Source: Pseudorhodobacter wandonensis (GTDB lineage: Bacteria; Pseudomonadota; Alphaproteobacteria; Rhodobacterales; Rhodobacteraceae). From it: a stretch of DNA of 64,000 nucleotides. Each line of letters opens with the position of its first letter. The first letter of the stretch is position 1. The DNA lies in the NCBI RefSeq assembly GCF_001202035.1, contig NZ_LGHT01000044.1, forward strand, positions 310,001 through 374,000, read 5' to 3'. Of the stretch, positions 45,279-45,348 are shown in pieces. Position numbers and translations under genes: made by a program. The notes beneath the pieces are model-generated. The model worked only from the letters and a program-made list of their open reading frames with translations, made no database searches and was not told the DNA's origin.

Positions 45279-45348
45279 AGTATAGAGCGTTGAAATATCT
45301 GTGAGGTTGATCTCAATCAACTTTGTCATCGGCCAAGGGCCTTAGAAT
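45279..45348. promoter_or_regulatory. Bidirectional FNR-type promoter of phaC and the N-ATPase operon
   Basis: A perfect FNR box TTGAT-CTCA-ATCAA lies at 45307-45320. To the right, TAGAAT at 45343-45348 is a -10 for atpD; to the left, TATACT (read on the minus strand, 45284-45279) is a -10 for phaC. In both directions the last base of the hexamer is 34.5 bases from the box centre, so the predicted start sites (45355 and 45272) place the box at -41.5, the class II position for FNR. Sequence and spacing are seen directly; use by FNR is inferred. Confidence 0.8.

Follow-up and report, generated by a model that had tools for sequence, protein, structure and literature searches.

The gap between phaC and the N-ATPase operon of Pseudorhodobacter wandonensis raises the question of whether one FNR dimer could activate two operons that run in opposite directions. 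In the window, by which is meant the whole stretch of 64 kb that was analyzed, the ATG of phaC (45241, minus strand) and the ATG of atpD (45393, plus strand) are separated by an intergenic gap of 151 bp. Near the middle of this gap lies the FNR box TTGATCTCAATCAA (45307-45320, no strand; centre 45313.5), a perfect inverted repeat of the consensus half-sites (TTGATN4ATCAA). A -10 hexamer is found on each side at class II spacing, TATACT facing phaC (45279-45284, minus strand) and TAGAAT facing atpD (45343-45348, plus strand), and the distance from the box centre to the far end of the hexamer is identical in both directions, 34.5 bases. The predicted starts, 45272 (minus strand) and 45355 (plus strand), were derived from this geometry alone, and the box falls near -41.5 in both directions. 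The original prediction, which had placed the box and both hexamers at 34.5 bases and had assigned the site to class II on each side, was correct to the base in its coordinates; the geometry was confirmed and is the sole such arrangement in the window. A mechanical sigma-70 scan of the window reported neither gap promoter, but this silence says little either way, because the scan demands a -35 hexamer.

The gene on the minus strand, phaC (43427-45241), encodes a class I-like PHA synthase of 604 aa. TIGR01838 is still its best model, at 550.4 bits and below the curated cut-off of 622.65, with TIGR01839 at 333.8. The nucleophile motif of class I PHA synthases is GxCxGG, and GYCLGG is present in the phaC translation. 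A second phaC, with 38% identity to the gap phaC, is located elsewhere in the genome. Behind phaC in the window, an ORF at 42217-43149 (minus strand) reads like dapF by eye.

On the plus strand, the operon starts with atpD (beta subunit, 45393-46787), whose best match is TIGR03305 (737.8 bits, cut-off 752). It continues with atpC (epsilon, 46784-47194, start inferred within the ORF 46694-47194), atpQ (ATPase_gene1 family, TIGR02230, 47191-47493), atpR (47490-47789, a weak TIGR03165 match of 22.4 bits for a cut-off of 55.5), atpB (subunit a, 47786-48481), atpE (subunit c, 48478-48765), atpF (subunit b, long form of 254 aa, 48769-49533), atpA (alpha, 49530-51056) and atpG (gamma, 51040-51918), with profile matches for atpB, atpF, atpA and atpG. 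The beta, a, b, alpha and gamma subunits match 'alternate F1F0' models, all below the curated cut-offs. The gene order, beta-epsilon-Q-R-a-c-b-alpha-gamma (D-C-Q-R-B-E-F-A-G) without a separate delta gene, is that of an N-ATPase. As N-ATPases (Dibrova et al. 2010) are presented in the available text of PMC11738941, PMC9927469 and PMC5376962, the window operon resembles them in this order, in its long b subunit and in a c subunit with a glutamate in both helices. In atpE, which also has a glutamate in helix 1, the sequence ESTAIY fits ESTxxY, which is described as the Na+ ligand motif of the c subunit (PMC9927469). Na+ transport by this enzyme is a prediction based on the motif, which is no proof of specificity, since the N-type c-ring of B. 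pseudomallei, which has two carboxylates, bound H+, contrary to what had been predicted (PMC5376962).

In order to appreciate how unusual the gap box is, it has to be set against the background of the genome. The perfect TTGATN4ATCAA occurs once in the 64-kb window, in the gap, and ten times in the 3.89-Mb genome, where the reversed control pattern occurs once. Boxes with up to two mismatches number 31 in the window versus 21.8 expected, and 31 is reached by 3 of 100 shuffles, so degenerate matches on their own mean little. The double arrangement is far rarer: hexamers matching in at least 5/6 positions on both sides at the 34.5-base spacing were found at 1 of 63,866 window positions, which is the gap box. 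Among the nine other perfect boxes of the genome, none has a TA dinucleotide at 21-22 nt on both sides; a one-sided TA at this distance is seen in L087 and in L086, the latter inside a long ORF. In another part of the window, TTGACGGAAATCAA (8576-8589) has a TAGAAT at class II distance on its plus side, 64 nt before an ORF of 132 aa (8654-9052) without a Pfam match; this site is possibly another FNR promoter.

A suitable regulator is encoded in the genome. Nineteen HTH_Crp_2 matches were obtained and the four strongest were examined. One of them is an FnrL equivalog with N-terminal cysteines, which scores 457.9 bits with NF045989 (cut-off 300), so that an FNR orthologue is present; the second-best score among the four scanned proteins was 73.7 bits. 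The gene adjoining fnrL has hemN as its best model (TIGR00538, 314.3 bits from a partial sequence, cut-off 324.95). Near likely FnrL targets of the same genome, two boxes were found at ccoN and one at fnrL/hemN. On their gene-facing sides these boxes all lack the TA at 21-22 nt; on the opposite side of one ccoN box, a TACCGT occurs within 21-23 nt. The signature is thus not common to all targets of known type. The window also encodes, some 10 kb away from the gap between phaC and the N-ATPase operon, a Crp-family regulator without FNR-type N-terminal cysteines (55803-56507, minus strand).

The conservation of the box was followed upstream of related phaC and atpD genes. A box was defined as at most one mismatch to TTGATN4ATCAA or as an exact TTGACN4GTCAA, the scanned span covered 400 nt and reached 30 nt into the match, and duplicates and gene fragments were removed. 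For phaC, the best 82 of about 140 rows were used (30 loci and 52 more, the 58 lowest-scoring being left out), and the 80 N-ATPase loci are the best-scoring among the matches listed. Among the non-redundant matches listed, a box was found upstream of 29 of the 94 related phaC genes (100 shuffles: mean 0.80, maximum 3) and of 20 of the 120 N-ATPase atpD genes (100 shuffles: mean 1.62, maximum 5), and none upstream of the other 65/94 and 100/120. The listed atpD genes with a box comprise 15/58 at no less than 74% identity and 5/62 below this value. At 70% identity or more, nine of twelve phaC genes have a box in the scanned span; of the remaining ones, L122 has its box slightly beyond this span, in which L147 and L148 lack one. 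For the phaC paralogues of about 38% identity, whose matches mostly start around residue 112 of the gene, the span was taken as the 400 nt upstream of the most distant in-frame start, and no box was detected in it (0/11).

The relatives also keep the class II distance. The occurrence of a TA dinucleotide past the box end peaks at 21-22 nt. In 48 non-redundant boxes, a TA at this distance is present on 21/32 phaC-facing sides, 13/23 atpD-facing sides (including loci without an adjacent phaC) and 6/41 other sides. The last group includes Sulfitobacter sp. SK012 (L193), where the box faces atpD from afar, and L093, where it faces an HlyD-type gene. The comparison of gene-facing with other sides (34/55 versus 6/41) gives a Fisher P of 3e-6, a value in which independence is overstated, the sequences being related. 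At random window positions, a TA at 21-22 nt is present on one side in 4.7% of cases and on both sides in 0.28%. The same bias towards -41.5 is reported for E. coli FNR, for which the site lies at -41.5 ± 4 in 19 of the 23 activated promoters whose start is known (PMC3688515).

Among 196 loci, seven distinct phaC/N-ATPase gaps were found: those of the window, Pelagimonas varians, an uncultured Rhodobacteraceae (L010), the genomes G221, G245 and G079, and Sulfitobacter sp. SK012. The box is present in all seven. In four of them (window, P. varians, G079 and SK012), a single box is flanked by a TA at 21-22 nt in either direction; in SK012, roughly 640 nt with a small annotated ORF separate this box from atpD. 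The TA is one-sided in G245 (phaC side) and L010 (atpD side), and G221 uses two boxes, so that each direction has its own. Strict conservation of the exact symmetry was rejected, the 22/22 spacing being found, among the seven gaps, in the window only. It is thus the exact symmetry that is special to the window, whereas the overall plan is not confined to it. On this comparison, the original prediction is partly supported. No further species with the divergent pair was found in the genera of G221 and G245 (one genome each) or of G079 (two genomes, one matched).

The proposed single-site double class II arrangement, seen in the window and in three other gaps and different in the remaining three of the seven, was also observed with an efflux partner. 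Two genomes of the same genus, G008 and G002, have retained the box at the phaC orthologue, with a TA 21 nt away on either side, yet an HlyD-type adaptor (Pfam HlyD_3, 73.8 bits in G008) replaces atpD; the N-ATPase of both genomes is sited elsewhere. By locus, the phaC genes of this clade that lie opposite an efflux adaptor gene instead of atpD are L190 and L191 (same genus) and L272, on a plasmid of Aestuarium zhoushanense, where the adaptor is annotated as such; in each, the box is perfect and is flanked by a TA 21-22 nt away in either direction. The N-ATPase of Pseudorhodobacter turbinis, which is not adjacent to phaC, has its own box with one mismatch and a CATAAT at class II distance. Since the divergent half-promoter persists with an HlyD-type gene, the double promoter also occurs independently of the ATPase, and selection for the ATPase is not required. 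The simplest reading of these sequences is that the back-to-back promoter would belong to phaC and that the divergent slot has housed different genes.

These adaptor loci lend some weight to an explanation in which only phaC is controlled from the box. The hexamer on the atpD side would then be a remnant of a different divergent gene, such as the efflux adaptor of the relatives, or be shared with it, and the N-ATPase would be transcribed from another promoter. Where atpD would be, G008 and G002 keep the TA at 21 nt, as TAGAAG and TAGAAA, before the adaptor, and the Aestuarium locus has a TA on both sides. We nevertheless regard this explanation as unlikely: N-ATPase upstream regions elsewhere show the class II TA towards atpD at the frequency given above, some of them without an adjacent phaC, and in the window TAGAAT, a 5/6 match, ends 45 nt upstream of the atpD ATG, which is preceded by GAGGA.

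The identity of the activator has to be weighed as well. Another Crp/Fnr protein, for example one responsive to NO or to redox state, might use the box, in which case the signal would not be oxygen itself. The genome has four proteins that stand out among its HTH_Crp_2 matches, Dinoroseobacter shibae uses FnrL and three Dnr proteins (PMC5398030), and many boxes of the relatives have the form TTGACN4GTCAA. However, a single one of the four scanned proteins reaches the FnrL cut-off, the next best being far below at the score already cited, and the box in the window matches the FNR consensus perfectly; the involvement of another regulator is accordingly held to be quite improbable. As for a chance origin, that is, a random palindrome with random A+T-rich hexamers at its flanks, the commonness of degenerate boxes speaks for it, but the double spacing occurs at no window position other than the box itself and a box is found in each of the seven phaC/N-ATPase gaps, so that coincidence can hardly be credited.

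The reading that we prefer, and that we consider probable from the sequences at hand, is that one FnrL site would act as a class II activator for two back-to-back sigma-70 promoters, by which both operons would be switched on at low oxygen. The original proposal of one dimer serving both directions is strengthened by the box in all seven gaps, by a -10 signature at class II distance that greatly exceeds the background, and by the FnrL equivalog; it is weakened by the looser double signature, retained in 4/7 gaps, and by the other divergent gene in two same-genus genomes. From the site, its geometry, its conservation and the presence of FnrL, we infer binding, activation, alternation and a physiological role as follows. 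When oxygen falls, FnrL would regain its iron-sulfur cluster, dimerize and bind at 45307-45320. RNA polymerase would then be recruited, with its -10 contact either at 45343-45348, for the N-ATPase operon, or at 45284-45279, for phaC. Two polymerases bound at class II distance would cover overlapping stretches of DNA at the box, so that the two directions are more likely served in turn than at once, and simultaneous firing both ways was judged unlikely. The directions would thus alternate on one DNA molecule and be co-induced across the population. The outcome may be an anaerobic energy housekeeping, in which PHB synthesis would drain acetyl-CoA and reducing power, and the N-ATPase would spend fermentative ATP to export Na+ (or H+), thereby holding the membrane potential.

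The neighborhoods of these genes give a physiological context. Behind phaC in SK012 (L193, 15049-20173) come fabI, a hydratase/phosphate acetyltransferase gene and an acetate-family kinase gene, which form a fermentative set. The Aestuarium locus (L272, 6151-11655) has a cluster of phaC, fabI, an enoyl-CoA hydratase/acetyltransferase gene and an acetate kinase gene. A relative of the hydratase/acetyltransferase (50%) is encoded on another contig of the window's genome.

A second setting was met at N-ATPase loci when neighbor genes were counted within up to 5 kb of atpD. Among the matches listed, the closer N-ATPase loci (L001-L038) have genes for arginine deiminase in 14/38, ornithine carbamoyltransferase in 13/38 and carbamate kinase in 16/38 cases, and each of the three was found in 0/42 of the more distant loci. 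All three genes occur in L003, L004, L005, L008, L009, L012, L015, L021-L024, L030 and L033, and arginine deiminase with carbamate kinase in L006. In 15 of the 16 listed loci that have it, the carbamate kinase gene ends at most about 60 nt from atpD. On plasmid pRA02 of Roseicitreum antarcticum (L195), an HdeD-family gene is found between the arginine deiminase genes and the N-ATPase. A box is present upstream of atpD in 8 of the 17 arginine deiminase-type loci scanned: about 110 nt before a transporter gene in L003 and L005, about 135 nt before the deiminase gene in L006, and 1.6-1.7 kb before it in L004, L008 and L009. At the boxes of the loci scanned, class II spacing is mostly not evident. 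No paper linking an N-ATPase with arginine deiminase was found in the open-licence PubMed Central literature.

An ATP-driven pump is the presumed role of the N-ATPase family (PMC11738941). Both settings, the fermentative one and the arginine deiminase one, can make ATP without oxygen, which fits this role, and the position of the N-ATPase behind arginine deiminase genes suggests an anaerobic ATP-driven pump. Taken together, these observations led us to a broader and more tentative proposal, to which we give somewhat less than an even chance. The N-ATPases of this clade would be the ion-pump arm of an FNR-wired module for anaerobic survival, in which PHA synthase would serve as an electron sink and ATP from substrate-level reactions (carbamate kinase, acetate kinase) would be spent on membrane energy. 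As part of this same proposal, and with the same reserve, FNR control might be reached by alternative routes: the double class II promoter shared with phaC, a separate promoter, or a location downstream of the arginine deiminase operon. If true, this proposal would answer what N-ATPases are for in these bacteria, their cellular functions being described as largely unexplored (PMC5376962). With a site for an oxygen regulator recurring before N-ATPase operons, low oxygen becomes a condition that can be tested, and the physical linkage to fermentation genes likewise points to a role open to testing. In addition, a natural promoter pair read from one FNR dimer would be a clean system in which two polymerases share one activator.

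The original prediction had named the link of both genes to low oxygen as one not known to be described; for phaC, a case of this kind is on record. In R. sphaeroides, an FnrL ChIP-chip peak is reported at phbC-fabI, with the site TTGAGcaagATCAA and the regulation given as '+' (PMC2908626, Dufour et al. 2010). This case resembles the one proposed here in FnrL, a PHA synthase gene, a near-consensus box and positive regulation; no N-ATPase is named in the available text. Likewise, PHA synthesis is associated with an FNR-type regulator and low oxygen in Herbaspirillum seropedicae, where Fnr proteins are needed for phaC expression (PMC5862806), and in Pseudomonas extremaustralis, where PHB is Anr-dependent (via PMC9049629); unlike in the window, a divergent ATPase partner is not mentioned in the accessible parts of these papers. 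As phaC is under FNR-type regulators in other species, oxygen control of PHA synthesis is not new.

The N-ATPase half of the link fared better. In the open-licence PubMed Central literature searched, and so far as the retrieved text of those papers goes, no N-ATPase was found to be described as FNR-controlled, and in the D. shibae FnrL paper the ATPase genes are the F0F1 ATP synthase clusters, given as repressed (PMC5398030). The N-ATPase arm would thus be the new part, the phaC half being already known in kind. For the mechanism, the closest precedent is that of E. coli CRP, which at a single target activates divergent promoters (El-Robh and Busby 2002, cited in PMC3105977). It belongs to the same superfamily, and one dimer serves two divergent promoters, as is proposed here; it differs in that it concerns CRP in a model system, whereas the window holds a natural gene pair with FnrL as the predicted activator.
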